Source of the DNA: Zoogloea oleivorans
Lineage (GTDB): Bacteria > Pseudomonadota > Gammaproteobacteria > Burkholderiales > Rhodocyclaceae
Reading direction: 5' to 3'
DNA length: 64,000 nt
Assembly (NCBI GenBank): GCA_030157785.1
Contig: JAOAUC010000019.1
Coordinates: 1 to 64,000 of the forward strand
Part shown: piece after piece, positions 3,249 to 19,990 of the stretch
How the letters are laid out: the number at the start of each line of letters is the position of its first letter
How positions within the stretch are numbered: the first letter of the stretch is position 1
Position numbers and translations under genes: made by a program
The notes under the pieces: generated by a model
Seen by the model: only the letters and a program-made list of their open reading frames with translations
The model's database searches: none
What the model was told of the DNA's origin: nothing

Positions 3249-5303
3249 TCAAAGACTATTTTCAGCTTCGCGCATTCTGCCGGCCCGATCGGGGAGTCGC
3301 ACGTAGTCCACCAGCGCCTGAACTTCAGCGGAGGGAGGTGGCGTAAGAAGGCTCACGATGGCGATGACGACGAAACCAACGGGCACACCGAACACCCCGC
3401 TGGAGATCGGATGAATATCGAGCCAAGCATCACCCATGTTTCCGCCAAAGAACGGATGAGTCCGCACAATGTAGTAAAGCGTGATTCCCAGGCCCGCGAT
3501 CATGCCGGCAACGGCACCCCATTTGTTCGCCCTTCTCCAGAAAATACCCAGAACAAGAGCCGGAAAGAAGGCCGAAGCCGCGATGGAAAAGGCCAGGCCC
3601 ACCATCAGGAGGATGCTGTCCGGACGCAAGGAAGCCACCCACGCAGCCACGACCGCCACGACCAACAACTGGGACTTGGTGATAACAAGTCGCCTCTGGG
3701 TGGAGGCCTGGGGATTAACCATCTTGTAGTAGAGATCGTGGGACAGGGAGTGGGAAATAGTGAGCAGCAGCCCGTCCGCGGTAGACAAGGCCGCAGCCAG
3801 CCCGCCGGCAGCCACGAGCCCCGAAACCACGTACGGCAGGCCTGCAATTTCGGGGACCAGGAGCAGGATCACGTCACTGTTCAGGGTGAGTTCAGCAAGC
3901 TGGAGAATACCGTCGCCGTTGATGTCCTCCACCTTTACGAGTCCTACCCGCCCCCAGGAGGCCACCCAGTGCGGCAAGGTGCCAATGTTCGAGCCAACGA
4001 GGTTGCTGTACACCTCCCATTTGGCAAAAACCGCATAGGCCGGCGCTGTAACATAGAGGAGAAATATGAAAAATAGCGACCAAAACACGGAACGTCGTGC
4101 CGCGCTCACACTCGGCGTCGTGTAGTAGCGCACCAGGATGTGCGGCAAGGCTGCGGTTCCGACCATCAGCACGAAGGTCAGGGCAATAAAGTTATTGCGC
4201 ACACTGTCTCGGCTCGCCTGATCAGCCCCCGGATGGGCCTCGGCGTGGGGAGCGGGATGGACTGCCCGGGTCAGACTGTCCTGCCGGCCCCTCTCCCACT
4301 TCAGACGAGCTTCGTCGGGCGTGCGGGGCAAGTCCCGGAGGGTCCGCTCGGCTGCGGAGATATCACGGGCCGGCGCGCCCTGTGTACGTAACTCGGTCAC
4401 CCGCTGCACCTGCCCGATACGCTCGGCAGCCAGGGAGTCGGGCAGATCGGCAATCTTGCGGGCGTACTCCTCGGCGCGATAGCGGTACTGAGCCCGCACC
4501 TCGTTTTCCCGCGGTTCGGAGAAGAGCTCAAGCTCTTTGACACCCAGATCCTGCAGAACCTTGCCGTACATCACCTGAGGCACAGGAACCCCGGTCACTT
4601 TGTAGGACAGAATCGTTACTGGCACCAAGTAGGCAATGATCAGAATCAGGTACTGGGCGACCTGGGTCCAGGTGACGGCACGCATGCCGCCGAGAAAAGA
4701 ACAAACCAGTATCCCGGCCAAGCCGACAAAAACACCAATCTCGAACTCAATCCCGATAAAGCGGCTGGTGATCAAACCCACACCATAGATCTGCGCAACC
4801 ACATAGACGAAGCTGGCCAGCACACCTGCAAACACGCCGACGACCCGGGCGAAGTGCCCCTCGTAACGGGCACCGAGAAAATCGGGAATGGTGAACTGGC
4901 CAAATTTACGCAAAAAAGGCGCCAGTAGTAGCGCGACCAGAACATAGCCGCCAGTCCAGCCCGTCACGAAGGCCAAGCCCTCAAAACCCGAGTAATACAA
5001 GGTGCCGGCCAGCCCGATGAAGGACGCGGCACTCATCCAGTCAGCAGCCGTGGCCATGCCGTTGAACAATGCCGGAACCCGCCGTCCGGCCACGTAATAC
5101 TCGGAGACGTCGGAGGTCCGGCTCATGACCCCGATCGAGGCATAGATCGCAATGGTCGCGAAAAGAAAGATCTGCCCGATCCACCTGGGCGACAGGCCGA
5201 GCTGCTCGGCGACCGCGAGCAAACCCACCAGGCTGACAAAGCCTGCAACGTAAAGTATGTAGTAGCGCCCGAGGCGGCGGAACAGCGCGGGGGTCGTACT
5301 CAT
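3249..5303 (-). CDS. Sodium:solute symporter (SLC5/SSS family, VC_2705-like, ActP-related)
   Basis: 684 aa multi-TM protein; SDVSEYYVAGRRVPALFNGMATAADWMSAASFIGLAGTLY; long hydrophilic insert; pairs with DUF4212 gene. Confidence 0.88.
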   Translation of the reverse strand: MSTTPALFRRLGRYYILYVAGFVSLVGLLAVAEQLGLSPRWIGQIFLFATIAIYASIGVMSRTSDVSEYYVAGRRVPALFNGMATAADWMSAASFIGLAGTLYYSGFEGLAFVTGWTGGYVLVALLLAPFLRKFGQFTIPDFLGARYEGHFARVVGVFAGVLASFVYVVAQIYGVGLITSRFIGIEFEIGVFVGLAGILVCSFLGGMRAVTWTQVAQYLILIIAYLVPVTILSYKVTGVPVPQVMYGKVLQDLGVKELELFSEPRENEVRAQYRYRAEEYARKIADLPDSLAAERIGQVQRVTELRTQGAPARDISAAERTLRDLPRTPDEARLKWERGRQDSLTRAVHPAPHAEAHPGADQASRDSVRNNFIALTFVLMVGTAALPHILVRYYTTPSVSAARRSVFWSLFFIFLLYVTAPAYAVFAKWEVYSNLVGSNIGTLPHWVASWGRVGLVKVEDINGDGILQLAELTLNSDVILLLVPEIAGLPYVVSGLVAAGGLAAALSTADGLLLTISHSLSHDLYYKMVNPQASTQRRLVITKSQLLVVAVVAAWVASLRPDSILLMVGLAFSIAASAFFPALVLGIFWRRANKWGAVAGMIAGLGITLYYIVRTHPFFGGNMGDAWLDIHPISSGVFGVPVGFVVIAIVSLLTPPPSAEVQALVDYVRLPDRAGRMREAENSL

Positions 5304-5315
5304 CCTAAGCCGCTC

Positions 5316-5621
5316 TCAATCCTCGTTATACATGCCATAGCGCCGCTCGAGCCGGGTCATCCAGCGGTCGTAAAGCCAGACAATCAGTAGAAAAACGATC
5401 AGCGCGCCCTGCGCCGCCATGTAGAAACCCAGGGGCCAGCCGAGAAAAATCACCGAATTCATTTCGTCTGCAAACCAGCCCGGCAGGAAGCTCACGCTGG
5501 CCCAGACAAGCAAGAGGACTCCCGTCAGGCGCAACGTGGCCCGCCAATAGGCCTGCTGTCTTGCGGCGGTATCGCTCACTCTCCACTCCCCTCCGGCCCG
5601 ACTCAGGGCCGCTGTAATCAC
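5316..5621 (-). CDS. DUF4212 small membrane subunit associated with the symporter
   Basis: 101 aa, two TM segments; YWRATLRLTGVLLLVWASVSFLPGWFADEMN...GWPLGFYMAAQGALIVFLLIVWLYDRWM. Confidence 0.85.
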   Translation of the reverse strand: MITAALSRAGGEWRVSDTAARQQAYWRATLRLTGVLLLVWASVSFLPGWFADEMNSVIFLGWPLGFYMAAQGALIVFLLIVWLYDRWMTRLERRYGMYNED

Positions 5622-5651: not shown

Positions 5652-7091
5652 CTATAGTTGATAGCGAATTTGGAGTTTTTGCTGAAGCTTGCGGGCTTGG
5701 CGGAACGACTCTTTCAAGAAGGATCGCTCAAGCTCGTTGAGATCGTCCGGTGCAAGCAGATTGGGCGGTGTGCCGGGTACTCTTTGCCGACGCAACCTCA
5801 TCTGCTGAATGACGTTCAGCGCCTCGACCAGGGCATCAGTTTCCCTGGGCGCCCAACGCAGCATGGCCCCCGCCGCCCGTAACCGACCCGCAGTGGACGT
5901 CTCTCCAATACCCAAAGCCAGTGCATAAATACGGGCCGCATCGACAAAAGGCCGGGTGCCATCACGTTTCAGATCAAGAAAACCGGTCTCCCGATCCACC
6001 ACGAAATCGCGGATGCGGCCCAATGGCGGACCGCTGCGCAAGGCATTGCCGGCCATGAACCGAAGAAACAGGGGGTTGTCGGCCGCCGTGGAGAGGAGCC
6101 AGTCTTTCAGGTCGACGGCCAGCGCCCCTTCACCGGCAAGAGGCCGGAAGTCGAAAAAAATGGTCGCATTGAGGAGATCATCCGGACTCGCAGAACGCAT
6201 CCACTCGACGAACTGCCCCCGCCACTCCCCAAGGGACAGGCACCACTTCGGATTACCCGCCATCACCCCCCCCTTGCAGAGAGGAAAACCGCACTCGTCG
6301 AGCAGCTCATTGACCCGCCGGGCAAAGGGCAGGAAGCGGACGCGCAGCCCTTCGGCTTCTTGCTCGGATTCCGACGCAAAGATGAGACCGTTGTCCTGAT
6401 CTGTATCGAGAGTCTGTTCGAGACGCCCTTCAGAACCGAAAGTCAGCCAGCACCAGCGTACGAGAGGCAACTCGAACTCCGTCTCGGCAATATCGATGGC
6501 CGCTAATACGATCAGATCGTTGAGAATCGCGATCCATTCGCTGACGTGTTCGGCACCGGCCCCCTCATCGACCAGCGCTCCTGCAGCTTCGCGTACCCGT
6601 CCGGCCACCCTGGCAAGGCCGGGCGCATCGGTGGCGGCCTGGATCGCTTCAACGAGATCTTCCGTTTCGAGACGCCTGGTGGCGTAAAGATCACCTCGGG
6701 ATACGACGCCGACAAAGCGGCCGGCACCGTCAAGCACGACCAGATGACGCAGGTCGTAACGGGCCATGGCGAGCCGCGCTTGGTGGACACTGGCCGACAG
6801 CGGCAGGGAGATCACACCTCCGGTCATTACGCCGGCTACCGGCTCGTCGAGATCGCCGGCAACCAGGGCCACCCGCTCGATGGCATCGCGCTGAGTCAGG
6901 ATGCCGAGGGGCCGCAGGCTGGCCGGATCGACCACCACGACTGTCCCGACACGTGCAGCGCACATGCGCCCGAGTGCTTCGCGGACACTGCTATCGGGCC
7001 CCACGTGCACCGGATTACGCCGCAAAAACCCACCGAGACAGCCAGACAACCGGGGCTCGTCCACATCCTCCTCGAACAATTCGGCGGCCAC
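5652..7091 (-). CDS. CBS-domain pair plus DUF294 nucleotidyltransferase-like signalling protein
   Basis: N-terminal tandem CBS; NTase-like motif FGSEGRLEQTLDTDQDNGLIF; C-terminal DUF294_C-like helical region. Confidence 0.85.
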   Translation of the reverse strand: MAAELFEEDVDEPRLSGCLGGFLRRNPVHVGPDSSVREALGRMCAARVGTVVVVDPASLRPLGILTQRDAIERVALVAGDLDEPVAGVMTGGVISLPLSASVHQARLAMARYDLRHLVVLDGAGRFVGVVSRGDLYATRRLETEDLVEAIQAATDAPGLARVAGRVREAAGALVDEGAGAEHVSEWIAILNDLIVLAAIDIAETEFELPLVRWCWLTFGSEGRLEQTLDTDQDNGLIFASESEQEAEGLRVRFLPFARRVNELLDECGFPLCKGGVMAGNPKWCLSLGEWRGQFVEWMRSASPDDLLNATIFFDFRPLAGEGALAVDLKDWLLSTAADNPLFLRFMAGNALRSGPPLGRIRDFVVDRETGFLDLKRDGTRPFVDAARIYALALGIGETSTAGRLRAAGAMLRWAPRETDALVEALNVIQQMRLRRQRVPGTPPNLLAPDDLNELERSFLKESFRQARKLQQKLQIRYQL

Positions 7092-7103: not shown

Positions 7104-9269
7104 CTAGTACTTGACCCGTGCGTAGTAGGTCTTTTCAGACGCCCGGCGAGCCTCACCAAGAGTCCGGATACCCATCTCCGCCAGCAGCGGGATCATGCGC
7201 AGGAAAACCTCCCCGGTGACGATCGCATCGCCGATTGCCGTGTGGCGCCCCATGATGTTCACCCCCATACGTTCGCAGATCGCCTCCAGCCGGTGGGACT
7301 CCTGAGAAGGATGAATCACGGCCGAGAGCAGCAGGGTATCCAGCACCGGCTGGGCGAAGCGGATGCCCGTACCCTCTTCCTTGAGCTGCAGGAAACGCAT
7401 GTCGAAAGCGGCGTTGTGGGCAACCAGCACCGTATCCTCGGCAAAGGCATGGAAGGCCGGCAGCACCTTGCTCATCGGCGGCTGCCCCAGAAGCATTTCG
7501 GGCGTAATCCCGTGAATCTTAGTGGAAGACTCAGGCAGTTCGCGGAGGGGATCGACCAGTTGATCGAAGGACTCCGACTTGAGAAGCTTTCCGTTAACAA
7601 TCCGTGTCGCACCGATCTGGATGATCTCGTCGCCCTCGGAAGGATTGAGGCCGGTGGTCTCGGTATCAAAGACCGTAAAGGCCAGCTCGGCGAGCGGACG
7701 ATCGTCGAGTTCGTGACTGGCTTCGGTCTGCTTGAAGAGATCGAAGTCGTAATACTCCGGACGGCTGTCCTGTTTCAGGTAGGCCGACGCGTCCACCTGA
7801 TCCTGGGGCGTAGCCGACGGAAGGAGCAGACGGAAGAAGGCTCGGTGCTGGGTTTTCTCCCGCTGCAACCACATTTCACCGTCGTGGCGGGCAATCACAT
7901 CGCGCACCGTCAAGGGTGAGCTTTCGCCGGCAAAGGCCATCGGCTCCAGCTCCCAGGACATCACGGTTTCCGTGCTCATGGCCTGCCCCGACCAGATCAG
8001 ATCCAGGTGCACCAGACGTCCGGCCGAGGTCAGGCGGAAACGAACCTCGCGCACCTCGAACTCGTCGGATAAACGACTGGCCAGATAGCTGATCGCCTGC
8101 AGCAGAGAGAAGCTGTCCACCTTCACCCACACGTCGGGGTCCACGTCTTCCAGCTTGGTGGGCAGACCGAGCTTCTTTTCGACACGACGCTGGGCCGCCG
8201 CCACCAGATCGGCCCCGAGCATTTCGTCGAGAGGCCAACGTGTTTTGAGGGAGTCGGCGAAAGTATTGGCAGTTTCATCAAGCCGGCTGCTCATCCCCTG
8301 CACTTCGTCGCGAATCACCTTCAGGAAACGATCCTTCAGTTCCGTATCGAGATCCGGATACTCCAGCATCTCGGCTGCTGCCCGCAGATTGGCGAGGGAC
8401 GAGCGGCTCCCCTCGGTGAGGGAGTGCAACATCTGGTCGCGCTTGGTCTCGGCCTCAAAGTTGCGCGTGATGTTGTCGAGCATCAGCACAAAGCCGGACA
8501 CCGTCGACTCGGTCTCACCCTCAACGGCCGACAAAACGGGCGCCATCTGCACCCGCAGCAACTGCCCGGCGCGGGTGGTTGTCACAAAGTTGGCGACGGG
8601 CTGGGCGCTCTGCCGGCGAATGCGCTCCTGGATGCTCTCCAGCGCATGCACGATCAGGTTGCGCTCGAAAACCATGTAGATCGAACGTCCGAGCCCGATG
8701 ATCTCACCCCCGCCAGCCGCCGTGGGGGCATCCGACAGGGCCTTGAACTGCAGCCTCGCCCGGTTGTTGTAGAGCAGGATGCGGCCATCCAGATTGCACA
8801 CAACGACGCTCTGGTTCAGCTCGGACATCAACGCGGCCAGCCTGTTACGCTCCTCCTCCACCGACAGACGCGCCTCACGGACACGCACCTCCACGTCTTC
8901 CTGAAGACTGCGGCGCTGGTCGGCAAGCAGATTGACCGACTCGGCAATGCGCTGGAGTTCGGGCGAGCCCGTCGGCTTCAGGCGCCGGGCCGGGTCAGTG
9001 CCGACAATCAGGCCGAGCTCATCAGCCAGCATGGCGGGCGCAGCCAGGTTCTCCTGGACGAAGGATTTCATCATCACCGCCGCCGCCCCGGCCCCCACCA
9101 GCCCGATCATGATCAGCAAACCGAGCCGGGGATTCAGAATCGGCTCCAGCACCTCCCGCTCGTATGGACTGAAATCGCGCCACACAGTAATGCCGGCGGC
9201 CGCCAGCACACCCACAACCAGGACGCAGGCCGAAAGGATCGCCAGCGCCTGCCTTGACTTGAGGCTCAT
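7104..9269 (-). CDS. Membrane sensor (2 TM, HAMP/PAS-like, degenerate histidine-kinase module) fused to C-terminal DEDDh 3'-5' exonuclease
   Basis: 721 aa; N-terminal TM segments, PAS-like region, HisKA-like helix without an H-box His, C-terminal FTVFDTETTGLNPSEGDEIIQIGATRI...VAHNAAFDMRFL...GRHTAIGDAIVTGEVFL (DnaQ-type ExoI/II/III). Confidence 0.85.
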   Translation of the reverse strand: MSLKSRQALAILSACVLVVGVLAAAGITVWRDFSPYEREVLEPILNPRLGLLIMIGLVGAGAAAVMMKSFVQENLAAPAMLADELGLIVGTDPARRLKPTGSPELQRIAESVNLLADQRRSLQEDVEVRVREARLSVEEERNRLAALMSELNQSVVVCNLDGRILLYNNRARLQFKALSDAPTAAGGGEIIGLGRSIYMVFERNLIVHALESIQERIRRQSAQPVANFVTTTRAGQLLRVQMAPVLSAVEGETESTVSGFVLMLDNITRNFEAETKRDQMLHSLTEGSRSSLANLRAAAEMLEYPDLDTELKDRFLKVIRDEVQGMSSRLDETANTFADSLKTRWPLDEMLGADLVAAAQRRVEKKLGLPTKLEDVDPDVWVKVDSFSLLQAISYLASRLSDEFEVREVRFRLTSAGRLVHLDLIWSGQAMSTETVMSWELEPMAFAGESSPLTVRDVIARHDGEMWLQREKTQHRAFFRLLLPSATPQDQVDASAYLKQDSRPEYYDFDLFKQTEASHELDDRPLAELAFTVFDTETTGLNPSEGDEIIQIGATRIVNGKLLKSESFDQLVDPLRELPESSTKIHGITPEMLLGQPPMSKVLPAFHAFAEDTVLVAHNAAFDMRFLQLKEEGTGIRFAQPVLDTLLLSAVIHPSQESHRLEAICERMGVNIMGRHTAIGDAIVTGEVFLRMIPLLAEMGIRTLGEARRASEKTYYARVKY

Positions 9270-9276
9270 TGCGGGC

Positions 9277-9651
9277 TCAGGCCGGAATATCCAGCAGGAA
9301 TTTCACCTTGGACACCAGCTCCCGCGTCGAGAACGGCTTGGTCATGTAGGCATCCGCCCCCATCGCCATGCCCTTGGTCACCTCGGTCTCACGGCCCTTG
9401 GCCGTCAGCATCAGAATCCGCGTCCCCTGCAGGGCCGGCTCGGCACGTATTTCCTGGCACACCTCATAGCCGTTCTTGCGCGGCATCATCACATCAAGCA
9501 GCACCAGATCGGGCGACTCGCTGCGTACCAGATCAAGCGCCTCCTGGCCGTCATTGGCGATACACACAATGAAGCCCTCACGCTTCATCAGGAATTCCAG
9601 AGAAATGACGATGTTTTGCTCGTCATCAGCGATCAATATTTTTTTGGTCAT
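9277..9651 (-). CDS. Single-domain response regulator (CheY-like receiver)
   Basis: 124 aa; KILIADDEQNIVISLEFLMKREG...PDLVLLDVMMPRKNGYEV...MLTAKG...GADAYMTKPFS. Confidence 0.93.
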   Translation of the reverse strand: MTKKILIADDEQNIVISLEFLMKREGFIVCIANDGQEALDLVRSESPDLVLLDVMMPRKNGYEVCQEIRAEPALQGTRILMLTAKGRETEVTKGMAMGADAYMTKPFSTRELVSKVKFLLDIPA

Positions 9652-9730: not shown

Positions 9731-12484
9731 TTATCCTGCCTCATCTTTCGTTTCTGTTGATTTGCCGCAAGGCATCAGAAACGAGAAGGTTGCCCCCTCC
9801 CCGGCGACACTTTCTACCCACAGACGGCCGCCGTAATGCTCGACGATCTGGCGGCTGATCGGCAGGCCGAGCCCGGTGCCCTGAGGCTTGTCGGTCATCG
9901 TGTTGCCGCCCTGCCGGAATTTTTCGAAAACGATCTGCTGCTCGGTCGGCGTCAGGCCTGGGCCATTGTCACGCACATCCACGCGCAAACCCTCGTCGGC
10001 TTCGGACAAAGTCACCGACACCACCCCTTTGCCCCGGGCCACAAATTTCACCGCATTGGAGAGGAGGTTGAGCATCACCTGAACAAGCCGGTCACGGTCC
10101 GCCAGCAAGCTCGGTACAGTGCCCGGCAGGCGCATCTCCAGGGCCACGCCCTTGTCCTTGAACAACTGGCTGGTGGACGCGGCTGCCTGCTCGATGACCT
10201 CGACCAGATTCACCTCGCCATTGTCCCAATCGGCATGACCCGACTCGATCTTGGCCATATCGAGGACCTGGTTGACCAGGCGCGTCAGGCGTTCGGTCTC
10301 ACTGACAATGATGCCCAGGAAACGCCTTCGGTCCGCCAGATCGATTCTCGGATCCTCCAGCAACATCTCCGAGAAGGCCCGGATCGACGTCAGCGGCGTA
10401 CGCAGTTCGTGGGTTACCGAGGACATGAAATCGTCCTTCAGGCGGTCCAGCTCCTTGAGGCGCTCGTTGGCGCTGCGCAATTCGCGGGTTGCCGCCTCCA
10501 GCTCGAGGGATTTCTGTTCGAGGCGTTTCGAATAAGCCCGTACCTGGGACGCTTCATCGAGGATGTTCAGTACCTCGTCGAGCCCCAGCGGCTCCTCCTG
10601 CACCACCGAGGCCACCATCACCCGCGCCGACGCACTCCCGATGGCACCCGCCAGCGTCGTCTCGGCAAAATGCACCAGCCCGGCATCTGCCTGCAACGCT
10701 TCCACGCTGGCCACGCCGCGCGTCCGGGCGTAATCCGCAAAAGCACTCCGCGCCCGTTCCCTGCCGATGAAACGCCCGATCAGCGGCAGCAAATCGGCCA
10801 CTTTGGCGCTCCCGCGCCAAAAAGCACCACCCGACGGCAGACTTTGCTTGAAGACATCCACAAACAGGGTCGCCTGACCAGCCTCGACAGCATTCGGCCG
10901 ACGCATCAGCGACACCCACACGTAGGCACTGATGTTGACCAGCAAACTCCAGAACAGGCTGTGGGCAATCTGGTCCACGCCCTTCAGGCCAAACAGTTCA
11001 TGGGGGCGCAGCAATTCCAGCCCGAACAGACCGTTCTGCAGGAAGCCGGTTGGCAGCCAGCCGGACTTGGCGAAGGACGGCAACAACAGCGTGTACAGCC
11101 ACACGGCAAAGCCACCCAAGAGCCCCGCCAACGCCCCACTCCGGGTCGCACCACGCCAGTACATCCCGCCGATCATTGCCGGCGCAAACTGGGCCACTGC
11201 CGCAAAACTTATCAAGCCGATACTGACCAGCGCATGCGCCTCGCCGGCCAGACGAAAGTAAAGGTAACCAAGCAACAGGATGAAAATGATCGCACCACGC
11301 CGGATCCCCAGCAGCAGGCCGGAGAGATCCTCCTCCCCCTGCAGCGCCAACCAGCGGTAACGCAACAGCAAGGGCATCACCAGGTCGTTGCAGACCATCG
11401 TCGACAATGCGATGGTTTCCACGATTACCATCCCGGTGGCCGCCGAAAGGCCGCCGATGAATACCAGCAAGGCCAGCCAGCCATGCCCGTAGGCCATCGG
11501 CAAGGTCAGCACGAAGGTGTCCGCATCCACATCCCGCCCGGCAAAATGCATCAGCCCACCCAGGGCGATCGGCAGAACGAAGATGTTGATCAGCAACAGG
11601 TAAAGGGGAAACAGCCAGATCGCGCGGCGCAAATGGTTTTCATTGACGTTCTCGACCACCGCCACCTGAAACTGGCGCGGCAGGAACATCACCGCCAGCA
11701 TCGACAGCAGGGTCAGCGCAAACCAGTTGCCATAGCCGTTGCCGCCAGCCCCCATCGTCATCAAGGCCTGCAGGTTCGGGTCCTGGGCGGCTCGCGAGAA
11801 CAGATCACCGAAACCGTCGAAGATACCGAAGGTTACGTAGATGCCGACCCCCATGAAGATCAACAGCTTGACCAATGACTCAAAGGCCACCGCCGCCACC
11901 ATGCCTTCGTGGCGCTCCGTGGCGTCGAGATGGCGGGTCCCGAAGAGAATGGTGAAAGCCGCCATGATCAGGGCGATATAGAGCGTCGTGTCGGCCAGCC
12001 ACGGAACCGTGCCGGCCTTGGCAGGCATGACGATTGCGGGGTAACTGGTCAGGATCGTGAAGCTGTTCGAGACAGCCTTGAGCTGCAGCGCGATATAGGG
12101 AATCACGCCCAGCACGGCGATGATCGTGACCAGACCGCCCAGCAAGTGACTCTTGCCATAGCGCGAGGCGACAAAGTCGGCGATGGAGGTGATCCGGTTG
12201 GTCTTGCCGATGCGGACCATTTTCAGCATCACGAACCACCACAGGGCGACAACCAGTGTCGGCCCGAGGAAGATCGGCGCAAAACCTAGCCCCGACGACG
12301 CAGCCCGCCCGACGCTGCCGTAGTACGTCCAGGTGGTGCAATACACCGCCAGAGACAGGGCGTAGATGGTCGGGTTGGCGATGATCGAGCGGCCGGCATC
12401 GGCCCGCTTGTCACCGATATACGCCACCGCAAAGAGCAGCGCGAGATACAGGAAGGAGACGGCGACAATGGTGGAGCCGGTCAC
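9731..12484 (-). CDS. Sensor histidine kinase with N-terminal SLC5/PutP-like transporter domain (CrbS/CbrA-like)
   Basis: 917 aa; multi-TM symporter-like N-terminus; H-box SSVTHELRTPLTSIRAFSEML; N-box NLLSNAVKFV; DNGPGL and GTGLGLPISRQIVEHYGG. Confidence 0.92.
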   Translation of the reverse strand: MTGSTIVAVSFLYLALLFAVAYIGDKRADAGRSIIANPTIYALSLAVYCTTWTYYGSVGRAASSGLGFAPIFLGPTLVVALWWFVMLKMVRIGKTNRITSIADFVASRYGKSHLLGGLVTIIAVLGVIPYIALQLKAVSNSFTILTSYPAIVMPAKAGTVPWLADTTLYIALIMAAFTILFGTRHLDATERHEGMVAAVAFESLVKLLIFMGVGIYVTFGIFDGFGDLFSRAAQDPNLQALMTMGAGGNGYGNWFALTLLSMLAVMFLPRQFQVAVVENVNENHLRRAIWLFPLYLLLINIFVLPIALGGLMHFAGRDVDADTFVLTLPMAYGHGWLALLVFIGGLSAATGMVIVETIALSTMVCNDLVMPLLLRYRWLALQGEEDLSGLLLGIRRGAIIFILLLGYLYFRLAGEAHALVSIGLISFAAVAQFAPAMIGGMYWRGATRSGALAGLLGGFAVWLYTLLLPSFAKSGWLPTGFLQNGLFGLELLRPHELFGLKGVDQIAHSLFWSLLVNISAYVWVSLMRRPNAVEAGQATLFVDVFKQSLPSGGAFWRGSAKVADLLPLIGRFIGRERARSAFADYARTRGVASVEALQADAGLVHFAETTLAGAIGSASARVMVASVVQEEPLGLDEVLNILDEASQVRAYSKRLEQKSLELEAATRELRSANERLKELDRLKDDFMSSVTHELRTPLTSIRAFSEMLLEDPRIDLADRRRFLGIIVSETERLTRLVNQVLDMAKIESGHADWDNGEVNLVEVIEQAAASTSQLFKDKGVALEMRLPGTVPSLLADRDRLVQVMLNLLSNAVKFVARGKGVVSVTLSEADEGLRVDVRDNGPGLTPTEQQIVFEKFRQGGNTMTDKPQGTGLGLPISRQIVEHYGGRLWVESVAGEGATFSFLMPCGKSTETKDEAG

Positions 12485-13054: not shown

Positions 13055-15013
13055 TTACTTGAGCTGTTCCAGGATGCCCGGGTTTTCCAGCGTCGAGGTG
13101 TCCTGGGTGATTTCCTCGCCCTTGGCCAACTGACGGAGCAGACGACGCATGATCTTGCCGGAACGGGTCTTCGGCAGGTTTTCACCGAAACGAATGTCCT
13201 TCGGCTTGGCGATCGGGCCGATTTCCTGGCCAACCCAGTTCTGCAGTTCCTTGATCATCGCGGTGGCTGCATCGCCGGTCGGACGGGCGCCCTTCAGCAC
13301 CACGAAGGCCACGATGGCTTCACCGGTCAGATCATCCGGACGGCCAACCACCGCGGCTTCGGCAACCTTCTCGTGGGCAACCAGCGCGGATTCGATTTCC
13401 ATCGTTCCCATGCGGTGACCAGAAACGTTCAGCACGTCATCGATACGGCCGGTGATGGTGAAGTAGCCGGTGTCCTTGTCACGGATCGCGCCGTCGCCAG
13501 CCAGGTACAGCTTGCCCTGGAAGTCAGCCGGGTAGTAGGACTTCACGAAACGGTCCGGGTCGCCCCAGATGTTGCGGATCATCGACGGCCACGGACGCTT
13601 CACGACCAGGATACCGCCCTGGCCCCAAGGCACTTCGGTGCCGGTTTCGTCGACCACGGCAGCCATGATGCCCGGGAAGGCCAGGGTGCAGGAGCCGGGA
13701 ATCAGCGGGGTCGCGCCGGGCAGCGGGGTGATCATGTGGCCGCCGGTTTCGGTCTGCCAGAAGGTATCGACGATCGGGCAGCGGCTGCCGCCGACGTTCT
13801 CGTAGTACCACTCCCAGGCTGCCGGGTTGATCGGCTCGCCCACGGAACCGAGGATGCGCAGGGAAGACAGATCGTATTTCTTCGGATGGACGGCCGGGGT
13901 GTTGTCCGCAGCCTTGATCAGCGAACGGATCGCGGTCGGGGCGGTGTAGAACACGGTGACCTTGTGATCCTGGATCATCTTCCAGAAACGACCGGCGTCC
14001 GGGTAGGTCGGCACGCCTTCGAACACGATTTCGGTCGCGCCGCAGGCAAGCGGGCCGTAGGTGATGTAGGTGTGACCGGTAACCCAGCCAATGTCGGCCG
14101 TGCACCAGAAGACGTCGTTCGGCTTGATGTCGAACGTGTACTTCATGGTCAGGATGGCATGCAGCAGGTAGCCGCCGGTGGAGTGCTGAACCCCCTTCGG
14201 CTTGCCGGTGGAACCGGACGTGTAGAGCAGGAACAGGGGGTGTTCGGCTTCGACCCACTCCGGTTCGCAAACGTCAGACTGGGTGGCGAGCAGGTCGTCG
14301 GCCCAGACGTCACGGCCGGCAACCATGGCGGTTTCGCCACCGGTGCGCTTCACGACGATCACGTTCTTGATGGTGGGGCAGCCGCTGGCCAGCGCTTCAT
14401 CGGCGATGGACTTGAGGGGCAGCGCCTTGCCGCCGCGGTTCTGGCCGTCGGAGGTAATCAGGGCCACTGCGCCGGCATCGTTGATGCGGTCGGACAGGGA
14501 CTGGGCAGAGAAGCCGCCGAACACGATGGAGTGGGTTGCGCCGATACGGGCACAAGCCTGCATGGCCACCACGCCTTCGATGGACATCGGCAGATAGATG
14601 ACGACGCGGTCGCCCTTCTTGACGCCGAGGCTGCGCAGGCCGTTGGCAAACTTGCTGACACGGCTGAGCAGATCGCTATAGGTAACCTTGGCGATGTCGC
14701 CCTTGTCGCCTTCAAAAATCAGCGCAACCTTGTCGCCCAGACCGTTTTTGACCTGACGATCAAGACAGTTGTAAGAAACATTTAGCTTGCCATCGGCAAA
14801 CCACTTGAAGAAAGGCGCATTGCTTTCATCAAGAACCTCGGTAAACGGTGTCTGCCAGTCGATCAGTTCCTTGGCCCGCTTGCCCCAAAAGCCTTCGTAA
14901 TCCTGCTCGGCCTCCGCACACAAGGCCTTGTACGCTTCCATGCCCGACACGGCAGCGTTTTTTACCACCTCTTCAGACGGATAGTAGAAATTCTGGGTGG
15001 TTTCGCTCGTCAT
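13055..15013 (-). CDS. acs: Acetyl-CoA synthetase
   Basis: [81 protein letters not shown] 15013 chosen (SD AGGAGAGG upstream) over GTG 15022. Confidence 0.96.
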
Positions 15014-15321
15014 TTTTTTCACCTCTCCTCGTGTTTTGAGTGTGCAACGTTGATAGCTTTGAAACCTTGCTGGCGGGGGCCACGATCGTTTGGCAGCACG
15101 TTCACCATGTTGTGTTTTTCTTGGAGAACCGATCCTGGATCCGCCTAGTATTAAAGGCGATCAATCTTACACATGACTTACACCTGACAGCTCTGCTTCC
15201 CATACCGGGCAATCATTACCCCTTCGAAATCGCGGGGCGGCCTCCTCCGCACAACGCAACACCACAAAACAATCTTTTTGACATAAACTTTAATGACAAA
15301 GGCACAAAACAAAACAAATAG

Positions 15322-17175
15322 ATGATCCATCGCTCTCATCTGCTGCTGGTCCTGGCTATCTCGGTAGCCGCCTGCTCGTCCCGGCCACCCGCGCAGACAT
15401 CGACAAGCCACCTGCGCGCCGAGGACGCACGGAGCACGCCGGCCAGCATCCCGCCGCTGGTGCCCCACGTCCTCCCCCTGCCCCGTCCGGTGCCCGCCCC
15501 GAAAACCGAAACCTACTCGGTCGTCGTCACCAATGTGCGCATCCAGGACCTGCTGTTCGCCCTCGCCCGCGACGCCCGCATCAACGTGGACATTCACCCG
15601 GGCCTGACCGGCAGCGTCACCCTCAACGCCATCGACCAGACCCTGCCGCAGATCCTCAACCGCCTGGCGCGACAAACGGACATGCGCTTCGAGTTCGATG
15701 GACCGAACCTGATGGTGATGCCTGACTCGCCCTTCCTGCGCACGTACCGCATCGACTACGTCAATCTCAGCCGCAACGTATCGGGTACTGTCAGCACCAA
15801 CACGCAAATTGCCACCAGCGGCACCGGCAGCACGCAGGCGGCCGGCAGCGGCATGACGGCCGCAGGGCTATCCAGCGGTGGCAACGTATCCGCCACGCGC
15901 ATCGAGAACGCATCGCGCAACCAGTTCTGGGAATCGGTTGAAAAGAACCTTCGCGACCTCCTGCGTGAAACCGACAAAATCCTCCCCGAAGGCTCCAGCG
16001 AAACGATCACCGAAAACCTCGAAACCTCCAGCACCACCGGCACAGGTATCGCCGCCACGAACACGGGCTCAAACAGCCGCAATCGCAGCCGCAACAACCC
16101 GCAACCGGCCGGCCTGGCGGCCAGCCCCAACCCTGCTGCGATGCAGAACACCTCAACCACGGTCGTCCACAAAGCCACTTTCCGCGAAGCCGCATCGGTC
16201 ATCGCCAACCGCGAGACTGGCGTGGTAACCGTCCGCGCAACCGGCCGCCAGCATGACAAAGTCCGCGAATTCATCGACGAGGTGATGAGCGCCGCCCGCC
16301 GCCAGGTGCTCATCGAAGCCACCATCGTCGAGGTCAGCCTCGGCGACACCTATCGCCAGGGCATCGAATGGAGCCGGGTGCTCAGCAGCGGCACCCGCTT
16401 CGGCATCACCGGGCCAAGCCTCGGCACCAGTGCAGGCAACACCCTCAATCCGTTCAGCCTGGCCTACAAGAGTGCCGACGGCATCGATTCGACGGTAAAG
16501 CTCCTGGAGGGCTTCGGCACCGTCAAGGTCCTCTCCAGCCCCAAGCTCTCGGTTCTCAACAACCAGACCGCTGCGATCAAGGTGGTCGAAGAGTACGTCT
16601 ACTTCAACGTCAAGGCCGACACCACCCAGACCGCCAACACGGGGGCGCTCACCACTGTCACCACCACTCCCCAGGCCGTCTCGGTCGGGCTGGTAATGAC
16701 CGTCACTGCGCAGATCAGCGAGAACGACGAAATCATCCTCAACGTTCGCCCCACGATCTCCAGCATCTCCGATTTCCGGCGCGACCCGAACCCCAACATT
16801 CCATCCACCATCGCCAACCTCGTCCCGCAAATCCGGACCCGTGAAATCGAATCCATCCTGCGCATCGAAAACGGAGAAACTGCCATCCTCGGTGGCCTGA
16901 TGGAGGACCGCATCGATTACAAGACCGGGCGCATCCCGCTGATCAGCGCCATCCCACTCCTCGGCGAGCTGTTCACCAACCGCGACAACGCGATCCAGAA
17001 AACCGAACTGGTCATCTTCCTGCGCCCGGTCGTCGTCCGTGAACCGAGGCTCGTCGCCGCTACCGCCCATCTGCGCGAGCACCTCCCGGACGATGGCTTC
17101 TTCAATGACCAGCCCCGGCCAGGGAAACGCAACTTCCCTGCTCCGCTCCCCGACATCGAGGCAAGCGCCCCGTGA
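15322..17175 (+). CDS. Secretin lipoprotein, MSHA-type pilus/T2SS-like (MshL-like)
   Basis: 617 aa; lipobox-like LAISVAACSS; secretin core VLSSPKLSVLNNQTAAIKVVEEYVYF...ETAILGGLMEDRIDYKTGRIPLISAIPLLGELFTNR. Confidence 0.88.
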   Translation: MIHRSHLLLVLAISVAACSSRPPAQTSTSHLRAEDARSTPASIPPLVPHVLPLPRPVPAPKTETYSVVVTNVRIQDLLFALARDARINVDIHPGLTGSVTLNAIDQTLPQILNRLARQTDMRFEFDGPNLMVMPDSPFLRTYRIDYVNLSRNVSGTVSTNTQIATSGTGSTQAAGSGMTAAGLSSGGNVSATRIENASRNQFWESVEKNLRDLLRETDKILPEGSSETITENLETSSTTGTGIAATNTGSNSRNRSRNNPQPAGLAASPNPAAMQNTSTTVVHKATFREAASVIANRETGVVTVRATGRQHDKVREFIDEVMSAARRQVLIEATIVEVSLGDTYRQGIEWSRVLSSGTRFGITGPSLGTSAGNTLNPFSLAYKSADGIDSTVKLLEGFGTVKVLSSPKLSVLNNQTAAIKVVEEYVYFNVKADTTQTANTGALTTVTTTPQAVSVGLVMTVTAQISENDEIILNVRPTISSISDFRRDPNPNIPSTIANLVPQIRTREIESILRIENGETAILGGLMEDRIDYKTGRIPLISAIPLLGELFTNRDNAIQKTELVIFLRPVVVREPRLVAATAHLREHLPDDGFFNDQPRPGKRNFPAPLPDIEASAP

Positions 17176-18284
17176 GCCTGCTGATGGACGTCCTGCGCAA
17201 GGCCGAAGAAGGCCGCCACACGCCGCAAGCTGCCATCGTGCACGCAGCCATCTTCACCCGTGACATCGAACTGGAGCCCCTTGCCGCTCAGGCTGGCAGC
17301 GCCAGTGTCGGCGTTCCACCCGCCGCAGTGCCGGCCCCTCGCCCCGTCGAATCCTCCGCCGTCCCCGCCAGTCCATGTGCACCCGAAGCCATGCGAACAA
17401 GCTGGCGGCTGCTCGGCGGGGCCGGTCTCGGTGCCGCCTTTGCCGTAGCCGGCTGGATCTGGTTCGAGGCCCGCGCGACAGCGCAAGCCTACGCCCCGCC
17501 GCCAGCCGCCCCGGTTGTATTCCCACCCCTCATCCCAATCACCAGCAACGAGCAGCCAACCCACCCGCCAGAAGACATCCTGCCAGTGCCGAATCCCGTT
17601 CGACGCCCAGCCCCACAACGCCTAAGCGCAGACAGGCGTCACGCACCAATCGACGCGCCCGATGAAGAGCCGCTGCAGTTACGCCCGGGCCAGCCCGCCC
17701 CCAGCGGCGCCTCACATCTCCTCCTGAGCGCCCACGACGCCTATACCGCCGGCGACCTGCCCCACGCGCAAACGCAGTACCGGCAAGTCCTGCAGAACGA
17801 CCCGGCCAACCTCGACGCCCTCAACGGGATGGGTGCCATCGCACTGCAACAGGGCCAGCCGGAGCAAGCCGAATCCCTTTTTCGGCGCGCCCTCCGGCTC
17901 AATCCCCACGATCCGGTCGCCCTCGCCGGCCTCAGCCAGACCCATGCACCAAATTTGCCGCGCGCCGAAACCCGGCTCCGGGTAAGCCTCGCCGAACAAC
18001 CCGACGCCCTTGCCACGCGAATCGCACTCGGTGACAGCCTGGCCGGCCAGCAGCGCTGGGCCGAAGCCCAGCAAGCCTACTTTCAGGCCCATTCCCTGGC
18101 GCCGAACGATCCCGATCTCGCCTACAACCTGGCGGTCAGCCTCGATCACCTGGGCCAGCGCCAGCCCGCCGTCACCTACTACCGCAAGGCACTCGAACTC
18201 GCCGAGCATCACCCTGCCCGCTTCGCACGAACACAAGGCGAAGCCCGCCTGCACACCCTTATCCCCCAGGAGCCCAGGCCATGA
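17172..18284 (+). CDS. TPR-repeat inner membrane protein (MshN-like)
   Basis: MSLLMDVLRKAEEGRHTP N-terminus, single TM, C-terminal TPRs; GTG start overlaps the secretin stop (GTGA). Confidence 0.75.
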   Translation: MSLLMDVLRKAEEGRHTPQAAIVHAAIFTRDIELEPLAAQAGSASVGVPPAAVPAPRPVESSAVPASPCAPEAMRTSWRLLGGAGLGAAFAVAGWIWFEARATAQAYAPPPAAPVVFPPLIPITSNEQPTHPPEDILPVPNPVRRPAPQRLSADRRHAPIDAPDEEPLQLRPGQPAPSGASHLLLSAHDAYTAGDLPHAQTQYRQVLQNDPANLDALNGMGAIALQQGQPEQAESLFRRALRLNPHDPVALAGLSQTHAPNLPRAETRLRVSLAEQPDALATRIALGDSLAGQQRWAEAQQAYFQAHSLAPNDPDLAYNLAVSLDHLGQRQPAVTYYRKALELAEHHPARFARTQGEARLHTLIPQEPRP

Positions 18285-19990
18285 GCCCGGATGCCACCCC
18301 CCGCCGAATCGGCGAAACCCTGATCCACATGGGGCTGATCACCGCCGACCAACTCCACATCGCCCTGCATGAACAAAGTCGCAGCGGCGAAGCCATCGGC
18401 CGCCAGCTCGTACGCCTCGGCTTCCTGTCCGAAGCCACCCTGCGCGACGCCCTCGCCCGCACCCTCGACCGACCCAGTGTCGATCTGTCCACCCTGCTCC
18501 CCGACGCGGAGGCCCTCGCACTCATACCGCAGCACATCGCGCGGCGCCTCGACCTCATCCCCCTCAGCTACGACACCGGCCGGCGCCACCTCGTCATCGC
18601 CTCGAGCGACATCAACAACGTCGTCGCCCAGGACCAACTGCGCAGCCTCCTGCCCGACGGCTGCAGCATCGAAACCCTGCTCGCCGGCGACTCGGAAATC
18701 GCCCGCACCATCGACCTGCTGTATGGCCACGAACTGTCCATCGACGGCATCCTCCACGAAATCGAAACCGGCGAAAGCGACATCCGCAGCCTGGCCGCCC
18801 GGGGCGACGGCTACGCCCAACCGGTGGTCCGCCTCATCGACGCCCTGCTCACCGACGCGGTCAAACGCGACGCCTCCGACCTGCATTTCGAGCCCGAAGC
18901 CGCCTTCCTGCGCATCCGCTACCGCATCGACGGCCTGCTGCGCCAGATCCGCGCCCTGCACAAATCCTACTGGCCAGCCATGGCGGTCCGCCTGAAGGTC
19001 ATGGCCGGGCTCAACATCGCCGAGACCCGCGCGCCCCAAGACGGACGCATCTCCCTGCTGGTCAGCGGGCGCCCGGTGGACTTCCGGGTGTCCACCCAAC
19101 CCACCATCCATGGCGAAAACATCGTCCTGCGCGTCCTCGACCGCCAGAAAGGCATCGTCGGGCTGCACGAGCTCGGCCTCACCGAACCCCAGCTCGACCT
19201 TCTCAAGCTGATGATCGCCCGCCCCGAAGGCCTGATTCTCGTCACCGGCCCCACCGGCAGCGGCAAGACCACAACCCTGTACTCCATCCTCGGCCACATC
19301 AACGCCGAGGGCATCAACATCATGACCCTCGAGGATCCGGTGGAATACCCGATGGCGATGATCCGCCAGACCGCTGTTTCCGAAAGCACCCGCCTCGACT
19401 TCGCCAATGGTGTGCGAGCCATGCTGCGGCAGGATCCGGACGTGATCCTGGTCGGCGAAATCCGCGATGCCGACACTGCCCGCATGGCCCTTCAGGCTGC
19501 CATGACCGGCCACCAGGTGTTCTCCACGCTGCACACCAGTTCGGCCATTGGCGCCATTCCGCGGCTGCTCGACATCGGGATCCTGCCCGACATCCTGGCC
19601 GGCAACGTGATCGGCATCGTCGCCCAGCGCCTCGTCCGGCGGCTCTGCCCGGCCTGCCGCGAGGCCCACCCGGCCGAAGACTACGAACTGCGCCTGCTCG
19701 CCCGATCCGGCGCACAAGCGCGCCCCGTGCTGCACAGGGCCAAAGGCTGCCCGACCTGCGCCTTCACGGGCTACCGGGGGCGGATGGCCATCATGGAACT
19801 GATCCGCATGGACCCCGACCTCGACGAACTGATCGCCCGCCGAGCCACCGCCAAGGAGATCCGCAGCGCCGCCCAGGCCCGGGGTTTCGTCAGTCTGGCC
19901 GAAGACGGCACCCGTCGCGTCCTCGAAGGCAGCACCTCCCTGGACGAACTCGCCCGGGTCATCGATCTCACCGAGCGCATGTTCCAGTGA
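18281..19990 (+). CDS. GspE/PilB/MshE-type secretion ATPase
   Basis: LILVTGPTGSGKTTTLYSILGHIN; MLRQDPDVILVGEIRDADTARMALQAAMTGHQVFSTLHT; LCPAC...GCPTCAFTGYRGR zinc motif; ATGA overlap. Confidence 0.93.
   Translation: MSPDATPRRIGETLIHMGLITADQLHIALHEQSRSGEAIGRQLVRLGFLSEATLRDALARTLDRPSVDLSTLLPDAEALALIPQHIARRLDLIPLSYDTGRRHLVIASSDINNVVAQDQLRSLLPDGCSIETLLAGDSEIARTIDLLYGHELSIDGILHEIETGESDIRSLAARGDGYAQPVVRLIDALLTDAVKRDASDLHFEPEAAFLRIRYRIDGLLRQIRALHKSYWPAMAVRLKVMAGLNIAETRAPQDGRISLLVSGRPVDFRVSTQPTIHGENIVLRVLDRQKGIVGLHELGLTEPQLDLLKLMIARPEGLILVTGPTGSGKTTTLYSILGHINAEGINIMTLEDPVEYPMAMIRQTAVSESTRLDFANGVRAMLRQDPDVILVGEIRDADTARMALQAAMTGHQVFSTLHTSSAIGAIPRLLDIGILPDILAGNVIGIVAQRLVRRLCPACREAHPAEDYELRLLARSGAQARPVLHRAKGCPTCAFTGYRGRMAIMELIRMDPDLDELIARRATAKEIRSAAQARGFVSLAEDGTRRVLEGSTSLDELARVIDLTERMFQ

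Follow-up and report, generated by a model that had tools for sequence, protein, structure and literature searches.

A predicted membrane-tethered DEDDh exonuclease fused to a dead histidine-kinase core in an acetate/pyruvate-type locus of Zoogloea oleivorans

Why acetate and pyruvate uptake operons carry a DnaQ-like exonuclease together with a DUF294 nucleotidyltransferase is an open question. A handle on it is offered by the window analyzed here, a stretch of 64,000 nucleotides of Zoogloea oleivorans (contig JAOAUC010000019.1, positions 1 to 64,000), in which such an exonuclease is fused to a pseudo-histidine kinase. The role best known for pseudo-histidine kinases is the regulation of other kinases. 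In the protein described here, which we call EXO and which recurs in hundreds of related bacteria, one has seemingly been turned into the receiver-reading input of a nuclease. An earlier note, made from the nucleotide letters alone, had interpreted EXO as a membrane-tethered, signal-controlled nuclease whose dead kinase serves as a dimerization or receiver-docking module and which might act on incoming DNA, among other targets. The tethered exonuclease and the dead kinase core stood up to our analysis, and the idea of receiver docking gained support; incoming DNA as a target did not. With a probability of roughly 0.6, we propose that EXO is a membrane-tethered cytoplasmic DEDDh exonuclease that is gated by docking of a receiver protein (REC) on its pseudo-DHp and that acts as an output of an acetate/pyruvate SLC5-type kinase.

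The open reading frame at 7104-9269 was confirmed. It lies on the minus strand, which had not been stated before, starts with ATG and encodes 721 aa, and all previously quoted motifs were found in its translation. Its parts are as follows.

7104..9269, minus strand: EXO, pseudo-histidine-kinase / DEDDh exonuclease fusion, 721 aa (Pfam, AlphaFold2, Foldseek; ~140 distinct homologues)
9189..9245, minus strand: TM helix 1, residues 9-27 (hydropathy; model helix 3-32)
9066..9152, minus strand: TM helix 2, residues about 40-68 with hydrophobic core 40-58 (hydropathy; model helix 35-90)
8823..9062, minus strand: HAMP-like segment and coiled coil, residues 70-149 (model helices 35-90 and 103-149)
8472..8822, minus strand: PAS domain, residues 150-266 (weak PAS_4; PAS_9 in the Paracoccus orthologue; alpha/beta PAS fold)
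8241..8468, minus strand: pseudo-DHp helical hairpin, residues 268-343, proposed REC docking site (helices 268-302 and 309-343; hhalign; REC co-occurrence)
8412..8414, minus strand: Glu286, replacing the phospho-acceptor His (E in 123 and D in 5 of 144 rows)
7812..8228, minus strand: degenerate CA (HATPase-like) domain, residues 348-486 (alignment, model, hhalign)
7692..7808, minus strand: low-confidence linker with a conserved SRPE(Y/F)YDFDLF motif, residues 488-526 (alignment, model)
7170..7682, minus strand: predicted DEDDh 3'-5' exonuclease domain, residues 530-700, with D535, E537, D623, H676 and D681

The anticipated N-terminal membrane segments were recovered by hydropathy at residues 9-27 and 40-58, and two hydrophobic segments recur in 147/174 long forms and 36/37 short forms of the family. 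Pfam assigned RNase_T (PF00929, E 2.2e-34) and gave sub-threshold matches to PAS_4 (0.014) and HisKA (0.029); it returned no HATPase domain in EXO and no HAMP match at residues 70-149, where the likeness was judged by eye. The PAS-like region forms an alpha/beta PAS in the AlphaFold2 model, and its assignment is firmer because PAS_9 passes the Pfam cut-off in the Paracoccus orthologue. The model, a single chain with a mean pLDDT of 82.7 that was built on an alignment of 100 family sequences, displays two long N-terminal helices and the PAS fold, followed by a hairpin of two helices (268-343), a CA-like alpha/beta domain (348-486), a flexible linker (490-519) and, at the end, the exonuclease. 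Confidence is good within domains, and at a pTM of 0.52 their relative placement is unreliable. Foldseek matched the first part to WalK, VicK, ThkA-TrrA, HK853 and DivL and the last part to PolC/epsilon exonucleases.

The exonuclease domain appears intact, as had been supposed: D535, E537, D623, H676 and D681 are kept in 136/136, 14/14 and 37/37 members, the last group being the short forms. A loss of the DEDD residues across the family would have spoken against a nuclease, and they are lost in a single untruncated member (L012). The closest comparisons, the PolC exonuclease domain (2p1j) and E. coli epsilon (DnaQ), share the DEDDh fold and the catalytic residues at 31-42% identity in Foldseek. 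In contrast to these replication proofreaders, EXO is membrane-anchored and signalling-linked. We rejected the idea that it is the replicative epsilon itself, as it scores 124.8 bits against the proteobacterial DnaQ model TIGR01406 (cut-off 222.7) and a separate epsilon-like DnaQ (L003) is encoded in the same genome. The member that lost its catalytic residues (L012 / L174, G051:C78:692-2683) has kept TM-PAS-pseudo-DHp-CA and adjoins a receiver in which the acidic pair normally found near the N-terminus is absent; this relative of EXO may have regulation as its sole function.

The kinase core is dead, in agreement with the replaced H-box and missing N and G boxes proposed earlier. Alignment of EXO with the neighbouring intact kinase by hhalign (99.3% probability, E 2.6e-19) placed Glu286 opposite His692. 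At this position His occurs in none of 144 aligned rows and none of 150 long forms, and the family alignment has no conserved His, Tyr, Ser or Thr there; about 90% of the ~140 distinct homologues carry Glu or Asp. The N-box Asn is mostly Arg (Arg399 in EXO), the G1 Asp has become a near-invariant Trp426 (142/144 rows) and the G2 box is gone. No homologue has regained an H-box; homologues with a canonical H-box and ATP-binding boxes were the other outcome that would have contradicted a dead kinase. EXO thus has the DHp hairpin and CA fold of a HisKA-type histidine kinase, as judged by model, Foldseek and hhalign, without the acceptor His and the N, G1 and G2 boxes, and it is predicted to be unable to transfer phosphate because the His is Glu and the ATP-binding boxes have disappeared. 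The core is nevertheless not a relic. Within Zoogloea, dN/dS is 0.02-0.20 for every EXO domain, 0.02-0.09 for the pseudo-DHp and near 0.05 for the CA remnant. Selection thus keeps the dead kinase in place, and a decaying remnant was rejected on this ground. Judged by these ratios, purifying selection is acting on all EXO domains. R289, W426 and G428 in the pseudo-DHp and CA are near-invariant in the family alignment.

The genes around EXO give the fusion its context.

9277..9651, minus strand: REC-only response regulator, 124 aa, phospho-acceptor Asp53, 7 bp upstream of EXO (Pfam)
9731..12484, minus strand: SLC5-type (CrbS-like) histidine kinase, 917 aa, intact H/N/G1/G2 boxes, no fused REC
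13055..15022, minus strand: acetyl-CoA synthetase acs, TIGR02188 (Pfam, TIGR)
5652..7091, minus strand: CBS pair, DUF294 nucleotidyltransferase and DUF294_C, 479 aa, 12 bp downstream of EXO (Pfam)
5316..5621, minus strand: DUF4212, small subunit of a sodium/substrate symporter, TIGR03647 (Pfam, TIGR)
3249..5303, minus strand: VC_2705-family sodium/solute symporter, large subunit, TIGR03648 (Pfam, TIGR)

Read along the minus strand, the order is acs, SLC5-type kinase, REC, EXO, CBS-DUF294, DUF4212 and the TIGR03648 symporter. The genes from kinase to symporter, separated by 79, 7, 12, 30 and 12 bp, are an operon-like run, and acs lies 570 bp further upstream. These neighbours (acs, SLC5-type kinase, symporter, DUF294) are indicative of acetate/pyruvate metabolism. 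As in the CrbS/R regulon, an SLC5-type kinase is found with acs, symporter and DUF294 genes, both in the window and at related loci. Whereas that regulon uses a DNA-binding regulator (ErdR/CrbR), the regulator adjacent to the kinase here is the 124-aa REC-only protein. The kinase resembles CrbS/CbrA-type SLC5 (STAC) kinases in architecture and acs context; EXO, in contrast, has no SLC5 part and appears to be a downstream component.

Related loci repeat this arrangement. The REC gene lies immediately 5' of EXO, mostly with a gap of -4 to +3 bp, and has Asp53 in 130/130 cases. The neighbouring SLC5-type kinase keeps its H, N, G1 and G2 boxes in 81/81 loci, and the NTase motif is present in 117/126 DUF294 genes near EXO loci. 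On plasmid 1 of Paracoccus denitrificans PD1222 (L306:2990-9890), DUF294 (PDEN_RS25395), a small ORF, the kinase (PDEN_RS25405), REC (PDEN_RS25410) and EXO (PDEN_RS25415) are found near cyoAB, and this locus has no acs or symporter gene. Its kinase, in which Pfam SSF reaches E 4e-4, is 59% identical to that of the window, and its EXO is 50% identical. The EXO genome of the window also carries a second DUF294 gene (G000:C27:71652-72071).

If the pseudo-DHp is the docking site for REC, lineages without REC are expected to lose it. We compared 184 distinct loci, from Rhodobacteraceae-type genomes and elsewhere, all with flanks of 900 bp or more in both directions; absence of REC was judged within about 5 kb of flank, and the DHp was scored by segment length. 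Scoring by HMM alone was discarded after it misread five divergent REC-linked members as lacking the DHp. Wherever a REC gene was adjacent, the DHp had its full length of 70-80 aa (136/136 loci). Among the 48 loci with no adjacent REC, DHp and CA were absent in 34, the DHp was eroded in 10 and it was intact in 4. The 34 short forms consist of two TM segments, PAS and nuclease, and in the 10 eroded forms the DHp is cut to 7-54 aa and a CA remnant remains. Two of the four intact cases, L177 and L189, come from two-copy genomes (L177/L197 in G068, L189/L190 in G172), each with one REC-linked copy and one that is not, both with an intact DHp. L166 has a hybrid kinase nearby, and L186 is unexplained. 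The earlier idea that the dead kinase docks a receiver is therefore supported by the joint loss of the hairpin and the adjacent receiver gene. In the eroded forms (L160-L163, L246-L248, L251, L167, L168) the CA remnant measures about 119-151 aa; since it outlasts the eroded DHp, the CA has a role outside the docking model.

In the nuclease-domain tree, a single origin of DHp loss was rejected (p-AU 0.00027). The best tree has 5 changes, with 3 independent pairs on supported branches, all in the same direction; with three supported co-losses a formal sign test cannot reach significance. As the tree has only about 5 changes, we rejected treating the association as 184 independent data points. 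Mutual-information covariation gave no enrichment at the canonical docking surface for REC against the pseudo-DHp, nor did it for the positive control, REC against the intact kinase, and so speaks neither for nor against docking. The nuclease residues are intact in all forms, and the nuclease is therefore the constant element and the DHp-CA an optional input.

A precedent for such an input is DivL-DivK of Caulobacter (DivL structure 4q20), in which a pseudo-histidine kinase with PAS and DHp-CA has likewise had its acceptor His replaced. The partner, proposed in our case, is a single-domain REC in both systems. DivL orthologues are often without DHp-CA where DivK is missing (PMC4211667), and the same pattern, DHp-CA being kept only where a single-domain REC partner exists, recurs here (136/136 loci versus 4/48). 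EXO does not belong to the DivL family, however. In DivL the acceptor site is Tyr, rarely Ala, the CA still has its kinase motifs and an enzymatic output domain is lacking (PMC4211667), whereas EXO has Glu/Asp, has lost the N and G boxes and ends in an exonuclease. The two systems are also unlike in partner kinase, pathway and gene context.

We therefore envisage, from the sequence-based picture of architecture, residue loss and retention, selection, linkage and co-loss, the following course of events. The SLC5-type kinase would sense a carboxylic acid or its transport state and phosphorylate the REC-only protein encoded just 5' of EXO. We infer that REC~P would dock on the DHp hairpin, the dead kinase core acting as an input domain much as that of DivL does for DivK~P. 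REC binding, together with whatever the PAS senses, would alter the EXO dimer, and the predicted nuclease activity would be switched on or off, either sign being conceivable, at the membrane beside the symporter from the same operon. A two-component pathway would thereby gain a possible direct post-transcriptional output.

The best lead to the physiological role that EXO may have is, by analogy, the phenotype of PP_0353 of Pseudomonas putida. This protein, like its homologues of the CrbS/R (MxtR/ErdR) acetate regulon, is an RNase_T exonuclease that shares an operon with a CBS-DUF294 protein, next to actP and yjcH in some species, and is linked to an SLC5-type kinase. Unlike the fused EXO, PP_0353 is a stand-alone exonuclease by its published description. 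Its gene forms an operon with that of a CBS protein, to whose promoter ErdR binds. P. putida can do without PP_0353 on 20 mM acetate and requires it to grow normally on pyruvate; the protein had no role in DNA use, and the authors of that study speculate on mRNA degradation (PMC9927547). Given this, and the acetate/pyruvate context, we found nothing behind the suggestion that EXO targets incoming DNA. Its substrate is most likely RNA, for example mRNA of carbon-metabolism genes; DNA, a nucleotidylated protein or small nucleotides are alternatives.

Other explanations of the locus deserve consideration. Signal flow might run the other way, EXO being a sensor whose nuclease or PAS state is passed on through the pseudo-DHp to sequester or shield a REC with another target. 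Pseudo-kinases can act on the state of their partner, and the co-loss of REC and DHp would be equally expected. We regard this as unlikely, as the REC protein lacks an output domain, and nuclease and anchor outlast the loss of REC and DHp in the 34 short forms (catalytic residues 37/37), which suggests that the nuclease is the effector and the DHp an input it can do without. Our doubts are a little stronger for a scheme in which the two-component output is again a tethered exonuclease and not transcription, and in which the CBS-DUF294 protein writes and EXO erases a nucleotide mark. The mark would sit on a protein (a symporter subunit, REC or another) or on an RNA 3' end, and carboxylate sensing would, if this were true, set transport or expression through nucleotide addition and trimming. 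Epsilon-type DEDDh enzymes cleave nucleotide aryl esters such as pNP-TMP, which resemble nucleotidylated tyrosine. Genomic association fits: DUF294 is a neighbour of EXO in 33/33 short forms and most long forms, adjoins stand-alone relatives in 4/4 of those examined with DUF294 in view, persists in the minimal Paracoccus locus and is represented by a true gene in 32/33 EXO genomes of the family versus 3/8 without EXO. Moreover, DUF294_C groups with GlnD/GlnE-type domains (PMC3710099). Yet the EXO genome G608 has no true DUF294 gene and many Thauera/Azoarcus loci have none nearby, for which reason we rejected DUF294 as an obligate partner. In addition, pyruvate growth of P. putida is impaired by deletion of the nuclease and not of DUF294 (PMC9927547), where a simple writer and its eraser would be expected to have opposite effects.

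EXO might also be an ordinary exonuclease, a repair enzyme or a second epsilon, fused to a decaying kinase remnant whose sole function is anchoring. This would agree with PolC and epsilon exonucleases being the nearest solved relatives and with the database names of EXO relatives ('exonuclease domain-containing protein' or 'DNA polymerase III subunit epsilon'). The strong purifying selection on pseudo-DHp and CA, the near-invariant residues there, the epsilon-like protein encoded elsewhere in the genome and a context of carbon metabolism and signalling, not repair, make this very improbable. We give even less credit to EXO retaining an unconventional kinase or phosphatase activity on REC. An acidic residue does occupy the His position in 124/136 REC-linked members, but the ATP-binding boxes are lost and the acceptor position has no conserved residue to phosphorylate; an ATP-independent phosphatase activity toward REC would be compatible with the sequence.

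EXO was found in 33/41 sampled genomes of the family and 45/399 of the phylum, and close public homologues are present in Zoogloea, Azoarcus, Thauera, Rhodoferax, Hydrogenophaga, Paracoccus and Cupriavidus. Because close homologues span several classes, the fusion is not a chance event. We found no earlier description of it in the open-access literature. Both ingredients have precedents, a pseudo-kinase input domain in DivL and a stand-alone exonuclease in the acetate regulon; what appears to be new is their combination in one receiver-linked membrane protein. Thanks to the natural series of stand-alone, TM-PAS-exo and TM-PAS-DHp-CA-exo proteins, REC being present or absent, the docking model is open to direct tests in laboratory strains, among them Paracoccus denitrificans PD1222 and Pseudomonas putida KT2440.

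Among the relatives, the locus L173:453-13217 (G126) encodes a stand-alone 203-aa exonuclease with DUF294, a 447-aa receiver-domain regulator, a CrbS-like kinase and acs, and is an unfused version of the EXO module. Short TM-PAS-exonuclease proteins with no kinase remnant (L266-L285, L290-L305) occur in many Rhodobacteraceae-type genomes, and both DUF294 and a symporter gene lie nearby in 33/33 with enough flank. Elsewhere in the window, at 15322-19990 on the plus strand, we noted by eye secretin-like, TPR and GspE/PilB-like open reading frames, possibly of a type IV pilus or type II secretion system.
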